Source: Kaistia dalseonensis
Lineage (GTDB): Bacteria > Pseudomonadota > Alphaproteobacteria > Rhizobiales > Kaistiaceae
Direction: 5' to 3'
Length of the DNA: 64,000 nucleotides
NCBI RefSeq assembly: GCF_030814715.1
Contig: NZ_JAUSVO010000006.1
Coordinates: 372,001-436,000 of the forward strand
Positions 37,722 through 64,000 of the stretch are shown piece by piece (the stretch's first letter is position 1; the number at the start of each line of letters is the position of its first letter). The notes beneath the pieces were generated by a model. The model did no database searches. It had not been told where the DNA came from and saw only the letters and a list, made by a program, of their open reading frames with translations. The translations under genes and the position numbers were made by a program.

Positions 37722-38066
37722 TCAACCGGCTTTGCGCTTCTGCTCCATGTAGCTGCGCAGCACGGCATTGATCCGCGTCTGGTAGCCGGGGCCGGCCTCC
37801 TTGAAGAAATCGAGCACGTCCTGATCGACCCGGATCGAGATCGCCGTCTTTTCGGCGGGAATGACTACCTCGAGTGTCGACCAGTCGATGTCGCCATCGC
37901 CATCCTCGATGGCCTGACGCTCGATCTCTTCCTCGGTTACGGCGTCGAGGCGAACGAGATCCGTCTGGCCAGGCCCCATCGCGTCCAGCTCATCCTCCGA
38001 ATAGCGAACGATATGCTCTTTCTTCGCCGGGACGCGCGCGGCGCGCCGAGATGATCCGAATGACAT
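37722..38066 (-). CDS. brnA: BrnA-type antitoxin / autorepressor
   Basis: Encodes 114 residues from ATG 38066 (MSFGSSRRAARVPAKKEHIV). KEHIVRYSEDELDAM, LDAVTEEEIERQAIEDGDGD and the C-terminal ribbon-helix-helix DNA-binding part (KTAISIRVDQDVLDFFKEAG, YQTRINAVLRSYME) are classic BrnA. The start lies 77 bases inside the toxin gene, a longer overlap than usual. It neutralises BrnT and should repress the promoter. Confidence 0.85.
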   Translation of the reverse strand: MSFGSSRRAARVPAKKEHIVRYSEDELDAMGPGQTDLVRLDAVTEEEIERQAIEDGDGDIDWSTLEVVIPAEKTAISIRVDQDVLDFFKEAGPGYQTRINAVLRSYMEQKRKAG

Positions 38067-38304
38067 TATCAACCTCCGTATAGACGACAGAGAAGAGTCG
38101 GCCTTCATATGGCCCGACACGCTGCCAGCGTCGTTCATCATTGCGATCGGAGCGCCATCGCACCACGCCCACGTGCCAGAGCTTTCTCATGTCACGAAAG
38201 TCGACGTTGCGGTCTGCCAGGGTCCTCAGACGTTTGGCTTCATCCCATTCGAATTCGAGCTTCCGGTCGGAAGCATGCAGGATTTCAGGGCCGTCTCCGG
38301 TCAA
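37990..38304 (-). CDS. brnT: BrnT-type ribonuclease toxin
   Basis: Encodes 104 residues if TTG 38304 is used; GGAGG stands 5 bases before it, whereas the longer ATG 38367 start adds residues not typical of the family. LEFEWDEAKRLRTLADRNVD, EGRLFSVVYTEVDNVIRIIS and ARRARPGEERAYRSL match BrnT, a RelE-fold RNase that stops translation. The pair is inserted between rsm22 and dnaG in an otherwise conserved block. Confidence 0.85.
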   Translation of the reverse strand: MTGDGPEILHASDRKLEFEWDEAKRLRTLADRNVDFRDMRKLWHVGVVRWRSDRNDERRWQRVGPYEGRLFSVVYTEVDNVIRIISARRARPGEERAYRSLFGG

Positions 38305-38391
38305 AATGACCTCCAAGATGGCCGCACGTCCTGCGCGGGCAGTTTCAGACTGAGAAACACCTAGCACGAAAGACGAAAGAAGCCAAGGCGC

Positions 38392-38411
38392 GTATATACA
38401 AATCGATATAC
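38392..38411. promoter_or_regulatory. candidate BrnA operator
   Basis: GTATAT-N8-ATATAC inverted repeat, about 90 bp upstream of brnT and AT-rich in a GC-rich setting. Its position between divergent brnT and dnaG suits an autoregulatory operator. Confidence 0.45.
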
Positions 38412-38523
38412 GAATGACCTGTCATTCGCTCCACACCAGCCGTTGTGGGATAACTCGCCGCTTTCCTTTGCCCTCGCCCCCTCCGCGTCCTACATTGGAG
38501 GGTCATCACCCAGCCTGGATGCC

Positions 38524-40467
38524 ATGCGCTTCTCACCGTCCTTCCTCGATGAAATCCGTGCGCGCCTGCCGCTCTCGTCGATCGTCGGGCGGCGGGTGAC
38601 GTGGGACCGCAGGAAGACACAGGCGGTCAAGGGTGATTTCTGGGCCTGCTGCCCATTCCATGGCGAGAAATCGCCGTCCTTCCACGCCGATGATCGCAAG
38701 GGCCGCTATCACTGCTTCGGCTGCGGCGAATCAGGCGACCATTTCACCTTCCTGACCAAGATCGAGGGCCTCTCCTTCCCCGAGGCTGTCGAGCGGCTGG
38801 CCGGCGAGGCCGGATTGCCGATGCCGGCGCGCGACGCCCGCGCGGAGGAAGAGGACAAGAAGCGCGCTTCGCTGCACGAGGTGATGGAGCTCGCCTGCCG
38901 CTATTTCGAGGAGGGGCTGCAATCGCGCGACGGGGCGCAGGCGCGCGGCTATCTGAACGGACGCGCGCTCGGCCCGGATATCCAGCGCCGCTTCCGCCTC
39001 GGCTATGCCCGCTCGAGCCGTAATGCGCTCAAGGAATATCTGGCCGCCAAAGGCGTGCCGCATGAGGACATGGTCGCGACCGGCCTGCTGATTTCGGGCG
39101 AGGATATTCCCGTCTCCTATGACCGATTCCGCGACCGCGTGATGTTCCCGATCACCGATTTTCGCGGCCGGATCGTCGCCTTTGGCGGGCGGGCGCTGTC
39201 GCCCGACGTGCCGGCCAAATATCTGAATTCGCCCGAGACCGTGCTCTTCAAGAAGGGCGACCTGCTCTATAACGGCTTCGAAGCGCGCAAGGCCGTCCAG
39301 GCGGCCGGCACGCTCATCGTCGTCGAGGGCTATGTCGACGTCATCGCCATGGTGACCGGCGGCTTCCCGCACACGGTCGCGCCGCTCGGCACGGCGCTGA
39401 CGGAACACCAGCTCGACCTGCTCTGGCGCCTTACGCCCGAACCGATCCTCTGCTTCGACGGCGACAAGGCCGGCCTTCGCGCCGCCTATCGCGCGGTCGA
39501 TCTGGCGCTCCCCGCCTTGAAGCCCGGCAAGACCGTGCGCTTCGCCCTCCTGCCCGAAGGCCAGGATCCCGACGATCTCATTCGTCAGTCCGGGCGCGAA
39601 GCGATGGGCCAGATCATCGCCGCGTCGCGACCCATGGTCGAGATGATCTGGACGCGCGAGACGGAAGGCGGCGTGTTCGAGACGCCGGAGCGGCGTGCCG
39701 CGCTCGAAGCGCGGCTGCGCGATATCGCCCGCACCGTCGGCGAGGAAACGGTGCGCCGCTATTACGAACAGGCGCTTTCAGAGCGGGTCCGCGACTTCTT
39801 CGGCGGCGGTGCGCAGGGCCGCCAGGGTGGCCAGCGCCGCATGGAACGCCGATTCGGCGGACGCCAGCAGGCCGATCGCCCCGACGCGCCGCGCTATGTG
39901 CCGACCTATCGTACGCAGTCGACCCAGGTCTCGTCCAAGCTGCAACAGACCAAGATCCGACCGGCCGCGGGCCCCCGGGAAACCGTGCTGGTCATGACGA
40001 TGGTGAACCATCCGGCACTCATCGCCGACCATTTCGACGCGCTCGCCGAAATCGAGCTAACGAATCACGAGCTTGACTCTCTTCGTGCGCAAATCCTAGA
40101 GATTGCCGCCGATGAGCCCCATATAGACGTGGACGCTTTGAGGTATCGACTCGTCGGCGCGAACTTTGGCGATTTGGTGGATCGTTTGAACCTGCAGATC
40201 AAGCTGGCCAGAAACTGGCAGGCGAGCGCGGACGCATCCGAACAGGACGCGCTCGATGGATGGTTGCAGGCACTGACCTTGCATAGGAAGGCGCGCACTT
40301 TACATAAGGAACTCAAGGATGCGGAGGCTGCACTTGCCTCGGACCCGAGCGACGCCAATCTGGCGCATCTGGTCGACATCCAGAACCAATTGGCAAATAG
40401 CGATGGTACCGAGGCTCTGATCGAGGGCTTCGGCGCCACTTCCGGCCGGCGATTGAGGACGATGTAG
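38524..40467 (+). CDS. dnaG: DNA primase
   Basis: Encodes 647 residues from ATG 38524 (MRFSPSFLDEIRARLPLSSI). Zinc-finger CHC2 domain (CCPFHGEKSPSFHADDRKGR, YHCFGCGESGDH), DnaG catalytic core, TOPRIM motif VVEGYVDVIAM and FDGDKAGLRAA, then the helical C-terminal DnaB-contact domain. It makes RNA primers at the replication fork. Followed by rpoD as in the classic macromolecular synthesis operon. Intact. Confidence 0.96.
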   Translation: MRFSPSFLDEIRARLPLSSIVGRRVTWDRRKTQAVKGDFWACCPFHGEKSPSFHADDRKGRYHCFGCGESGDHFTFLTKIEGLSFPEAVERLAGEAGLPMPARDARAEEEDKKRASLHEVMELACRYFEEGLQSRDGAQARGYLNGRALGPDIQRRFRLGYARSSRNALKEYLAAKGVPHEDMVATGLLISGEDIPVSYDRFRDRVMFPITDFRGRIVAFGGRALSPDVPAKYLNSPETVLFKKGDLLYNGFEARKAVQAAGTLIVVEGYVDVIAMVTGGFPHTVAPLGTALTEHQLDLLWRLTPEPILCFDGDKAGLRAAYRAVDLALPALKPGKTVRFALLPEGQDPDDLIRQSGREAMGQIIAASRPMVEMIWTRETEGGVFETPERRAALEARLRDIARTVGEETVRRYYEQALSERVRDFFGGGAQGRQGGQRRMERRFGGRQQADRPDAPRYVPTYRTQSTQVSSKLQQTKIRPAAGPRETVLVMTMVNHPALIADHFDALAEIELTNHELDSLRAQILEIAADEPHIDVDALRYRLVGANFGDLVDRLNLQIKLARNWQASADASEQDALDGWLQALTLHRKARTLHKELKDAEAALASDPSDANLAHLVDIQNQLANSDGTEALIEGFGATSGRRLRTM

Positions 40468-58968: not shown

Positions 58969-60797
<1,829 letters not shown>

Positions 60798-60804
60798 TGA
60801 TGGC

Positions 60805-60972
60805 TGACACATGGTCTTGCAGAACCGGGATTAGGTGGGATTGAGCGGAACCGCGCGGGATTTCCCGCAGAAAGCTGGGAGTTTCGGGGCAGCGGCGGGA
60901 CATAAGGGATCTGACCTAAGATTTTGCAGAACATGGAAGCGCGCGGCAGCATGACACTTGAGTTTGCAGAAC
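60805..60972. repeat. three transposase-binding-like end sites (L1, L2, L3)
   Basis: Direct 21-bp repeats at 60805-60825, 60912-60932 and 60952-60972. All start TGAC and end TTGCAGAAC; the middle varies. Spacings are 107 and 40 bp. Phage Mu attL has L1-L2-L3 at comparable distances. Confidence 0.8.
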
Positions 60973-61060
60973 ACAGACCGTTCGGGCGCCGTTCCTTCGG
61001 CGATGGTAACGGCCTCTTATCGATGTCTTAGGGGCGAGGCTGACGGCACGCGTTCATCGG

Positions 61061-61786
61061 CTATTCTAGCGTAAGCGGATGAGCCGTCGCGTCGAGGCCG
61101 GTCGTATCGATAGTCTCGTCATCGATTGGATCGCCCATGGTCATTCGCGTCGTCAGCGTCACCGCTTGAGCCTTCGCTTGGGCGAGATCCTGTTCGGAAA
61201 GCCTGCCACATATCAGGTTCATATTGGACCAATCGCTTTGGTCAACCTGCTTTGCGCTGCTGGCCACGATAATCAGCCGCCATGTGCAGCTCTGCGTCGC
61301 ATTTTTCACCATCGCGGCAGTGCCAACCTGCAGGAAATAAGCGAGGTTCCGTCGTGCCTGATAGTCGCCACCATAAGCCTCGTTGTAGAGCGCGCGGAGT
61401 TCTTCTTTGTTTCTTTCGCACTCAACGCGCTCATCTGGTTGCAGACAGAGCGTCATATAACGATCGGCCTCGTGAAAGCGCTGAGTTGTTGGCGGTGTGA
61501 TCTCGGAAACCTGCTCAGCTTTTGTCGCGATCGTCTCCTCTACCTGGGCAGGAGCCTCTGCGACTGGCGCGGGCGAAGTCACTGCCGGCGCCTCTATCGC
61601 ATCTGCTACAGCGGCGGGCGCAGGCGCAGGCGTTTCGGGCACTTCCAAGCTATCCGAGCCAGCATTCGCGGCAGTCTCGACATGCTCTTTCTTTTCGGCG
61701 AAAAGGCCTACGATCATAAAGAAGAGCAACAGGCCAAATGTTCCCAGCAAAATCTTGCGGAATATCGATCTCTTTTTCTTAGCCAC
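61061..61786 (-). CDS. membrane-anchored protein of unknown function in the prophage left end
   Basis: Encodes 241 residues: basic start (MAKKKRSIFRKIL), one membrane helix (LLGTFGLLLFFMIVGLFA), a Pro/Ala/Glu-rich linker of about 65 residues and a C-terminal globular part with Cys residues (YMTLCLQPDERVECERNKEE, NATQSCTWRLIIVASSAKQV, NMNLICGRLSEQDLAQ). I recognise no family. It lies between the end sites and the repressor and is transcribed leftward, the position of a lysogeny-expressed cargo (moron) gene. Codon use is less GC-rich than in the core genes. Confidence 0.75.
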   Translation of the reverse strand: MAKKKRSIFRKILLGTFGLLLFFMIVGLFAEKKEHVETAANAGSDSLEVPETPAPAPAAVADAIEAPAVTSPAPVAEAPAQVEETIATKAEQVSEITPPTTQRFHEADRYMTLCLQPDERVECERNKEELRALYNEAYGGDYQARRNLAYFLQVGTAAMVKNATQSCTWRLIIVASSAKQVDQSDWSNMNLICGRLSEQDLAQAKAQAVTLTTRMTMGDPIDDETIDTTGLDATAHPLTLE

Positions 61787-61796
61787 CCTGCCACCA

Positions 61797-62567
61797 CTAT
61801 ATCGTTCTGCCGATCCACACGACGCGGCCGGCTATGTGTAAGTCGTTCATGTCTTGGCGCGAGATCGTCTCGCGCTCATAAACTGGATTGTCGGAAATCA
61901 GCACCACGGAATCGTCGATGCGGAATTGGACCCGCTTCACGATGACAGTGCCGCTGCGGATAATGACGTAGATGGCGCCGTTTTTGATGTCGCGAGGCTC
62001 ACGGATCGAGCCGTCGACGAGCATCAGTGCGCCATCTGGAATTGTCGGCTCCATGGAGTCGCCATCAGCCGCCAGCATGAAGGCGGTGGCCGGGTTGATG
62101 CCGATGCGGCGCAACCAATCGCGCCTGAACGCGAGCATGTCGGCAATATCTTCCGAGACAGCCAGCTTGCCGTTTCCTGCTGCCGCGCGAACCTCATAGC
62201 GCGGCAGAAACGCGAAATCCTCTCGCGTTGGCGATACCAAAGCGTCCGGCTCCTGACGTTCCAGCGCCTGCAACTGAACCTGCGCCTGCGTCGTCCGCTC
62301 GCCGTTGAATACCAGCCAGTCCAGCGAAACGCCGCATGCGCGCGCCAGCGCCCCAAGTGCCGCCGCCTTCGGCTCACTGACCGCTCGCACGTAATTATTC
62401 ACGGTACCGATCGGCACGCCTGCCCTTTGCGCCACGGCCTGATTGCCGCCCGCCGCCCGAATCGCCTCCCTCAAACGGGCTGCTATTTCGGACTTAAGGC
62501 TTTCAACTCCGAAATTGTCATCGTGATCGAGTTCCACAATTCGGACTTTCAAATTCCATTGTTGCAT
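61797..62567 (-). CDS. phage repressor, XRE helix-turn-helix plus S24 protease domain
   Basis: Encodes 256 residues from ATG 62567 (TTG 62582 is possible). Helix-turn-helix GGNQAVAQRAGVPIGTVNNY near residues 40-62. A likely self-cleavage Ala-Gly lies in VRAAAGNG. The peptidase Ser is in ADGDSMEPTIPDGALML and the Lys in GTVIVKRVQF. It should keep the prophage silent and be cleaved when RecA is activated. Divergent from the ner-like gene. Confidence 0.9.
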   Translation of the reverse strand: MQQWNLKVRIVELDHDDNFGVESLKSEIAARLREAIRAAGGNQAVAQRAGVPIGTVNNYVRAVSEPKAAALGALARACGVSLDWLVFNGERTTQAQVQLQALERQEPDALVSPTREDFAFLPRYEVRAAAGNGKLAVSEDIADMLAFRRDWLRRIGINPATAFMLAADGDSMEPTIPDGALMLVDGSIREPRDIKNGAIYVIIRSGTVIVKRVQFRIDDSVVLISDNPVYERETISRQDMNDLHIAGRVVWIGRTI

Positions 62568-62651
62568 CAAGGGTTTACGCAAACGCTACCCGATAGTTTT
62601 AATTCTGGAACATCGAAGCAGTTTTAGCGTGGACAGGAATTCCAATTCTGG
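62536..62651. promoter_or_regulatory. candidate repressor operator cluster
   Basis: AATTC occurs five times in about 110 bp (62538, 62552, 62601, 62638 and 62644), as AATTCTGG twice and once as the palindrome GGAATTCC. It covers the start of the repressor gene and the gap before ner. Confidence 0.4.
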
Positions 62652-62722
62652 TATCTTGATGTTGCGAACACAAATCTTGGCACTCGAAAAAACCCGGCGC
62701 TCCTGCCGGTTCCAGAACAGCA

Positions 62723-63019
62723 ATGATAGCGGATAAGCACCCCGAAGACATCAAGGCGATGATCCGCAAGAAGGGCCTCTCGATGGAGGCTCTTTCGCAG
62801 CGTCTCGGCTATTGCCGCGTCGCAGTCGGCGTGACCTTGCGTCGGCCCTGGCCGGCCGTGCAGGCCGGCATCGCATCCTTTCTCGGCATTGATCCCTCCA
62901 GCCTCTGGCCCAGCCGCTACGAGGCCGACGGCACGCCGCGCCGCATCAGGGCGGCCTCAGGATCGAAATCTAGAGGCAGCGCCGAAGCCCGTCTCCGTCA
63001 AAAAGACAAGGCCGCTTAA
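62723..63019 (+). CDS. ner: Ner-like DNA-binding protein
   Basis: Encodes 98 residues (MIADKHPEDIKAMIRKKGLS). The N-terminal 70 residues match the Ner/Nlp helix-turn-helix of Mu-like phages, including MEALSQRLGYCRVAVGVTLR and FLGIDPSSLWPSRYEADG. A basic tail of about 25 residues follows. In Mu, Ner switches off early and repressor transcription during lytic growth. First rightward early gene. Confidence 0.9.
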   Translation: MIADKHPEDIKAMIRKKGLSMEALSQRLGYCRVAVGVTLRRPWPAVQAGIASFLGIDPSSLWPSRYEADGTPRRIRAASGSKSRGSAEARLRQKDKAA

Positions 63020-63021
63020 AC

Positions 63022-63867
63022 ATGAGTGACGTTTCCAAAGCGCCGATCCGCATTCAGCTCGCCGATATCGACATCAGCCAAAGGCTGCGGCCGGTCGACG
63101 AGGCGAAGGCGCTGTTCATCGCGGCCGGCATGGCCAAGGGCGGGCTAGAGACGCCGATCGAGGTTCGGCCGGCGCCGAAGAAGGCCAAGAAGCCATATAT
63201 CCTCATCGTCGGCGGCCATCGTTGTCGTGCCGCGTTCGAGCTCGGATGGACCGAGATCGACGCCTTTGTGCTCGACATCAGCGCCGACGAAGCGCGGATG
63301 CGCGAGATCGACGAAAACCTCTATCGCGCCGAGCTCACCGAGCTCGATCGGGCGGTGTTCCTCGCCGCGAAAAAGGAGCTTTACGAGAAGCTCAACCCCT
63401 CGACCAAGCACGGCGGCGACAGGGTCTCAGAGCAAGTCGCCATATTTGGCGACTTGGCGCCGCGCTTCACGGCCGAAGTCACCGAACGCCTCGGCTATAG
63501 CGAGCGCACGATCCAGCGTGTCGTGGCGCGCGCCGCCATCCCGGCCTCGATCCGCGCCCGTATCGCCGGTACCCGGCTCGCCAATACCGGCGCCGAGCTG
63601 GACGCGCTGTTGCGGCTCTCGCCCGACGAACAGGCGAAAGCGCTCGATCTCCTGCTTTCGGGCGAAGAGGGGGCGCCGCGCAGTGTCGCCGCAGCCCATG
63701 CCGCGCTGACCGGCGCCCGCGCCGCTCAAGTCGCTCCCAGCGACGCCGAGTTTGACGGCCTGCTCAAGGCATGGCGGCGCGCCGGCCAGAGCGCCCGCGC
63801 CCGCTTTATCGCCGATCTGCAGCGCCAAGGCGCGATCACAGCCGCTACCGAGGGGGACGACCAATGA
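63022..63867 (+). CDS. ParB-N-domain protein of transposable phage
   Basis: Encodes 281 residues, 2 bp after ner. ParB-like N-terminal domain with IVGGHRCRAAFELGW and DENLYRAELTELDRAVFLAA, followed by a helix-turn-helix (TERLGYSERTIQRVVARAAI). Similar genes precede the transposase genes in alphaproteobacterial Mu-like phages. Its role there is not established; a partition function is unlikely. Confidence 0.85.
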   Translation: MSDVSKAPIRIQLADIDISQRLRPVDEAKALFIAAGMAKGGLETPIEVRPAPKKAKKPYILIVGGHRCRAAFELGWTEIDAFVLDISADEARMREIDENLYRAELTELDRAVFLAAKKELYEKLNPSTKHGGDRVSEQVAIFGDLAPRFTAEVTERLGYSERTIQRVVARAAIPASIRARIAGTRLANTGAELDALLRLSPDEQAKALDLLLSGEEGAPRSVAAAHAALTGARAAQVAPSDAEFDGLLKAWRRAGQSARARFIADLQRQGAITAATEGDDQ

Positions 63868-64000
63868 CCAGTATCCGCCCGCGCGGCTGGCGCGCCCGTT
63901 TCAGTCCCGAGCAGATTGCATGGCTTGCCGCCATCGGCATCTGCATCGGCACCTACGCTCTGATCTTCGCGATCGTCGCTTGGTTGGCAGGGTGGCTCTG
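63864..64000 (+). CDS. small membrane protein, cut by window edge
   Basis: ATG 63864 overlaps the previous stop (ATGA). The visible 45 residues start MTSIRPRGWRARFSPEQIAW and contain one membrane helix (AIGICIGTYALIFAIVAWLA). No family recognised. Part of the early phage operon. Confidence 0.7.
   Translation, partial: MTSIRPRGWRARFSPEQIAWLAAIGICIGTYALIFAIVAWLAGWL

Follow-up and report, generated by a model that had tools for sequence, protein, structure and literature searches.

The window analysed here is a stretch of 64,000 nucleotides of the Kaistia dalseonensis genome (G000; contig C6, positions 372,001-436,000), and positions given without a contig name are window coordinates. Near its right edge, a tandem host repeat is interrupted at position 60798 by what is almost certainly, to judge from the sequence, the left end of a prophage of a Mu-like transposable phage. 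An earlier inspection of the letters of the window (the original prediction) had proposed such an end at this base. Contig C6 extends to window coordinate 97087 and stops inside the prophage, and we located the right end on contig C3. The features at the left junction are as follows:

60393..60797, plus strand: host tandem repetitive extragenic palindromic (REP)-like repeat, copies 1 and 2; copies 3 and 4 run from C3:2600, to the right of the prophage
60793..60797, plus strand: left copy of the 5-bp target duplication GCGGG; the right copy, at C3:2600-2604, is exact
60798..60799, plus strand: TG, left terminus of the prophage; its right counterpart is CA at C3:2598-2599
60805..60825, plus strand: L1, putative MuA site of 21 bp, at base 8 from the terminus
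60912..60932, plus strand: L2, putative MuA site of 21 bp, at base 115 from the terminus
60952..60972, plus strand: L3, putative MuA site of 21 bp, at base 155 from the terminus

The three sites are direct repeats with spacings of 107 and 40 bp, as originally described, and their likeness to the L1-L2-L3 spacing of Mu was borne out when a geometry scan gave a 105/40 triple for Mu itself (NC_000929). All three contain the 9-mer TTGCAGAAC, which occurs on the plus strand at 60817, 60924 and 60964 and is absent elsewhere on both strands of the window and its extension to 97087; in 50 dinucleotide-shuffled windows it was found 0.18 times on average and once at most. A narrow geometry scan for three similar 18-mers at Mu-like spacings, applied to 16 sources, ranked the L1-L3 triple first in its 4.5 kb (score 41, next 34), and this score was reached in none of 1000 shuffles of 60798-61060 (maximum 36). 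The Mu triple scored 34, joint top with another match, and 34 of 1000 shuffles of the first 263 Mu bases reached that value. L1-L3 are candidate MuA binding sites, and their conservation across relatives (see below) supports this assignment.

The host repeat has a period of about 202 bp and follows its earlier copy through 60797, after which it breaks into TGATGG, in agreement with the original prediction; its 140-base inner unit has a predicted fold of -92.9 kcal/mol (RNA parameters). The interrupted repeat picks up again at C3:2600: the repeat in the window and C3:2604-2937 are 90% identical over 336 bp, and the sequence from C3:2600 onward leads into a VOC-domain gene and a PLD-type gene. 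Immediately before C3:2600 stands CGCGCTTCA, and the element terminates in CA at C3:2599. The duplication that was to be sought at the far end was found, as the GCGGG ending at 60797 is repeated exactly at C3:2600-2604. When the flanks are merged over these 5 bp, they give GCGCCTGGCGGGCCCCC, a sequence that this array also has at two further boundaries between units; the prophage sits at a unit boundary.

To search for right-end sites, we used a matrix derived from the three left sites only. It identified two inverted sites, CGTCACTTGGTTTTGCACCAC (score 15.4) at base 30 and CGCCACTTGCTTTTGCAGTCA (score 10.5) at base 8, and of the 194,174 positions in the window and its extension only the three left sites reach 15.4. 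The expected inverted sites are therefore present, but as the variants TTGCAGTCA and TTGCACCAC and not as exact copies of TTGCAGAAC. The host locus without a phage was studied in the genus, where the aminotransferase of this locus has matches in 13 other genomes; 12 of them were fetched and one (G008, with its match on a short contig) was left out. These 12 congeners are other species and not strains of the same species. In all 12, the aminotransferase, the VOC-domain gene and the PLD-type gene are consecutive, the first two within about 255 bp, and 4.4 kb stretches from them contained no match to the phage ends. The empty-site comparison proposed earlier thus came out in favour of an insertion.

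The gene content agrees with this reading. After the left end come the repressor, Ner-like and ParB-like genes announced by the original prediction, and further downstream the transposase A and B genes for which it had called:

61061..61786, minus strand: protein of 241 amino acids (aa) between the left end and the repressor (phrog_5882; no Pfam family)
61797..62582, minus strand: repressor with helix-turn-helix and Peptidase_S24 domains, LexA/CI-like (PF00717, 4.9e-23; PF01381; phrog_4, 5.8e-50)
62583..62722, no strand: divergent control region with the related words TTCTGGAAC at 62603, its complement at 62709, and AATTCTGG at 62601 and 62644
62723..63019, plus strand: Ner-like DNA-binding protein (PF13693, 3.9e-21; phrog_769)
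63022..63867, plus strand: ParB-like protein (phrog_3264, 2.1e-55; PF02195 just below the cut-off)
64461-64925: regulator (phrog_2345)
64922-66916: MuA, DDE transposase (PF02914 (DDE_2), 4.9e-54; PF09039; PF09299)
66964-67935: MuB, AAA+ transposition protein adjoining MuA (PF09077, 1.2e-21; phrog_296, 2.9e-80)
75444-77744: terminase-like frame (phrog_2; no Pfam match)
77741-79315: Mu portal (PF06074)

MuA residues 107-602 align to the Mu transpososome chain 4fcy (2.2e-106), and this protein is the single PF02914 match in the whole genome. A gpF-like head protein was recognized by PF04233 in the first 227 residues, which were those scanned, and further downstream there are genes for a head protease, the gpT major head protein (PF10124), sheath, tube, tape measure, baseplate hub, baseplate J and a tail-fibre-like protein; the sheath gene predicts a contractile tail. 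A D12-class adenine methylase (C3 contig stretch L029, 1711-2532) and a GDSL-domain protein adjoin the right end. The element thus combines MuA and an adjoining MuB, TG and CA termini with a 5-bp duplication, direct left and inverted right sites, a repressor and a Ner-type regulator that diverge near the left end, and head and tail genes of the Mu type. The words in the control region between the two regulators are candidate operators and perhaps an enhancer; for an internal transposition enhancer, the pattern search gave only the candidate operator words at 62601-62717. The 241-aa protein appears hydrophobic near its start by eye, and the position of its gene would suit a lysogenic-conversion or exclusion gene.

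From the ends, duplication, sites and genes read in the sequence, we infer how protein binding, activity and induction would proceed. MuA would bind L1-L3 and R1-R2 and bring both ends together, and would nick at TG and CA, joining the ends to target DNA with a 5-bp stagger, while MuB would assist target choice. The LexA/CI-type repressor, which is probably self-cleaving, would hold the prophage silent, and its S24 domain suggests release upon DNA damage. S24 domains of the LexA/CI kind self-cleave on DNA damage, and the phage would therefore be SOS-inducible. An excerpt on two other Mu-like phages, vB_ThpS-P1 and vB_PeaS-P1, reports their induction by mitomycin (PMC5488378).

The end design is shared with other prophages of the bacterial order (in the following, G-numbers are genomes of this order, and a, b and c are separate prophages in G150). 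MuA had matches at E ≤ 0.001 in 40 of 297 genomes of the order, its own included, and 15 of these were below 1e-40; within the family, there were matches in 4 of 28 genomes, again including its own. We then used a wide scan of 22 sources, which looks for TG and, at base 8, a 17-mer repeated at L2 and L3, with L1-L3 searched at 144-150 and L1-L2 at 97-125. Left ends were accepted in ten sources: this phage, G110, G150a, G150b, G165, G254, G099, G095, G002 and G017. That of G110 ties with a chance match in the geometry scans and is accepted on the strength of the site matrix and the duplication. The scan gave no acceptable left end in G150c, G046, G239, L107-L111, L079, Mu, Aussie and StopSmel; some of the records scanned may simply not include the phage end. 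G150c, found by homology, has the sites but starts with CG instead of TG, and the 33 sites of the ten accepted left ends and G150c have the consensus GGACACtTGAaacTGgAG.

For eight prophages, all CA positions in the fetched stretch were ranked by two site scores alone, the test itself placing R1 at base 8 and restricting R2 to 21-23 bp from R1. In seven of the eight, the top-ranked CA has an exact 5-bp duplication and lies more than 30 units above the runner-up. The duplications are GCGGG in this phage, CCCCT in G110, CTGTC in G150a, GCGGG in G150b, CCCAT in G254, CAGAG in G002 and GTAGT in G099; in G165, no right end was found in the 20 kb fetched. Six relatives therefore have the same end design and exact duplications, and since the ranking used the sites only, this strengthens the evidence for the right end. 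Host synteny had not resolved the ends of the G002 prophage, which the sites and the duplication later did.

This phage and G110 have an L1-L2 distance of 107, the other accepted prophages one of 115-117, so that L2 is found at either of two positions separated by about one helical turn. The L1-L3 distance of all these prophages falls within 145-149, a constancy partly imposed by the search range of 144-150; the split in L2 was not imposed. On the MuA tree, the site type requires 2 changes versus 7.5-7.6 in shuffles, with none of 500 shuffles as low, for the 22 rows scanned and with near-copies favouring such clustering. The closest relative is the G110 prophage, from another family of the order: its MuA is 72% identical, its L1-L2-L3 spacings are 107/39, and it measures 39,610 bp, with the right terminus TGAAGCG, the left terminus TGTTAGC and an exact 5-bp duplication. 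The MuA gene of this relative (G110:C1:3878128-3880080) contains one in-frame TGA, and the G110 prophage may be inactive or the TGA a base error. The chromosome of G150 carries three related Mu-like left ends, at C1 3911087, 4024043 and 4497792, the third starting with CG, and two of them are about 89-91% alike over their common left stretches.

Several observations weigh against the proposed prophage end. Presumed chance triples in 14 of the 15 other sources of the narrow scan, Mu excepted, score up to 39 (L090), and the scan score alone is therefore not decisive; we took the best triples in Aussie, StopSmel, G002, L107-L111, L079, L084, L086 and L088-L090 as chance (scores ≤39). The 10.5 of the weaker right site, at base 8, is reached by five of the 194,174 positions, three of them the left sites, so that two other positions match it. 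No third right-end site (R3) was detected with the left-site matrix. Finally, the halves of the prophage lie on separate contigs, C6 and C3, as parts of 36,290 and 2,599 bp plus an unassembled gap, and with the joint unassembled, the evidence for one continuous element is host synteny, together with the duplication and the sites.

The contig ends offer a probable explanation for this gap. The last 95 bases of C6 recur, reversed and without a difference, as the start of contig C5, and C3 begins with 95 bases that are identical to its own end reversed, as would be expected if two prophages have a common segment. A second prophage occupies C5 from base 1 to about 25,200 and has a tyrosine integrase (C5:23766-25199; PF00589, 3.1e-9). 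It shares a tail segment with the Mu-like prophage, 91% alike over 178 bp at the contig ends and identical in the last 95, and this common segment probably broke the assembly. A third tail-gene region, on the reverse strand of C3 at about 250,400-251,800, has 72-80% DNA identity to the tail-fibre region of the Mu-like prophage.

Three alternatives were considered. The element could be a defective remnant with true Mu-like ends that has lost transposition or particle production. The unassembled C6-C3 joint and the in-frame TGA in the MuA gene of the 72% relative would fit this, but open frames are seen for MuA, MuB, portal, major head, sheath, tube, tape measure and baseplate J, each matched over most of its profile, and the ends and the duplication are intact; we consider a remnant rather unlikely. 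A false pairing, in which the C3 end would come from another element that also stops at a host repeat of this kind, is very improbable. Members of the repeat family are frequent enough for contigs to be wrongly matched there (0.37% of 404 kb sampled from this genome, the prophage's array included), but C3:2600 onward continues the same array at the identity given above and reaches the VOC and PLD genes, which come after the aminotransferase in all 12 congeners fetched, and the C3 terminus carries sites that match those of the left end. A prophage of the tyrosine or serine integrase type, with the left-end repeats as attachment-core or operator repeats, was suggested by the integrase and the common tail segment of the C5 prophage, but the 5-bp duplication and the sites at the right end refute it, and the TG and CA termini, MuA and MuB near the end, and the position of the genome's only PF02914 match inside this element also speak against it.

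With a Mu-like prophage as the preferred reading, we compared the targets of the seven insertions with both ends exact. This prophage lies at the unit boundary of a REP-like array, the G110 insertion is inside the hairpin TCCCTCCCCTGCCAGGGGGAGGGA, that of G150b inside ACCCCCGCTTTCGCGGGGGT, and that of G150a 44 bp from CCCTCTCCCGCGAGGGGAGAGGG; the test used found no hairpin at the G254 and G002 insertions (G099 was outside the test). By a criterion set after the flanks had been seen, in a small sample and against a background not matched for intergenic position, hairpin arms of at least 8 occurred within 75 bp in three of six empty sites (G110, G150a and G150b) versus 3-13% of background positions, and arms of at least 9 in two of six versus 2-4%. 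The array at this prophage's own site would not be counted as a hairpin by these arm lengths. Since the criterion is post hoc and intergenic position uncontrolled, we do not claim a preference for REP targets, for which these observations are suggestive. For the Pseudomonas phage HW12, hotspots are reported that have a REP-like unit on one side, at a distance of 55-61 bp (PMC5977238), which the repeat-array target recalls; the parallel is likewise suggestive. The wider proposal, in which this branch prefers REP-like palindromic targets and kept L1-L3 nearly fixed while L2 shifted by about one helical turn as the transposase diverged, is a tentative one that we regard as doubtful.

The original prediction had called the prophage unreported-looking, and this holds in part. 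Its first 19.2 kb have no megablast match among 50,697 curated phage records, but IMG/VR already contains the C6 part: over the 15,853 bp fetched, its record UViG_2928190133_000005 is identical, and the length of the record would make it span 61061-97086. Its start coincides exactly with the end of the first gene (61061), so that the leftmost 263 bp, and with them all three sites, are missing. At the protein level, MuA matches 176 of the curated records, all at less than 60% identity (best-ranked, 44.2%). No publication title among the matches listed names this prophage, preprints and most subscription papers being outside the scope of that search. The value of the prophage lies in its exact ends, now given where the public prediction cuts it short, and in the common end design: as ten prophages of one order share it, such left ends can be searched for from sequence alone, and the two branches of the transposase, whose L2 positions differ by about one helical turn at a near-constant L1-L3 distance, offer a natural test of the rigidity of Mu-type transpososomes.

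Among named phages, RcapMu (NC_016165) is likewise an alphaproteobacterial Mu-like phage and has the same order of repressor, Ner-type regulator, ParB-like protein, regulator and transposase. Its record annotates attL/attR imperfect repeats as 'potentially associated with transposase recognition', but its terminus and site sequences differ from those found here, and the geometry scan did not recover its sites in the first 6 kb. Ochrobactrum phage POA1180 and the Sinorhizobium phages Aussie and StopSmel are among the best curated MuA matches (40-44% identity) and have the same early gene order, but their MuA proteins form a separate supported branch of the tree. DNA methylases are annotated in POA1180 and StopSmel (Aussie was covered at 1-27732 and 38000-39025 only). 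Aussie and StopSmel have different end sites, with TCCGGAATT at both ends, and no left end of the type described here was found in the 7 kb of POA1180 or the first 5 kb of vB_RhkS_P1 scanned.

The published descriptions give the end anatomy of this phage a precedent. An excerpt on Pseudomonas phages presents L1-L3 as imperfect direct repeats and states a conserved 5'-TGT (PMC4378225), in contrast to the TGA at both ends here, and a section of the Harshey review gives three sites at each end of Mu (PMC3562280). Mu has L1-L2-L3 in one orientation at nearly the same spacings and, like this phage, two right-end sites 22 bp apart and the right terminus TGAAGCG. Its site core differs, it has a further right-end site in the opposite orientation, which was not seen here, and its left end is followed first by the repressor gene, where here the 241-aa gene comes in between; the D12 adenine methylase stands in the place where Mu has mom. 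The prophage is thus ordinary in kind, a well-defined addition to the known Mu-like phages and not a new kind of element.

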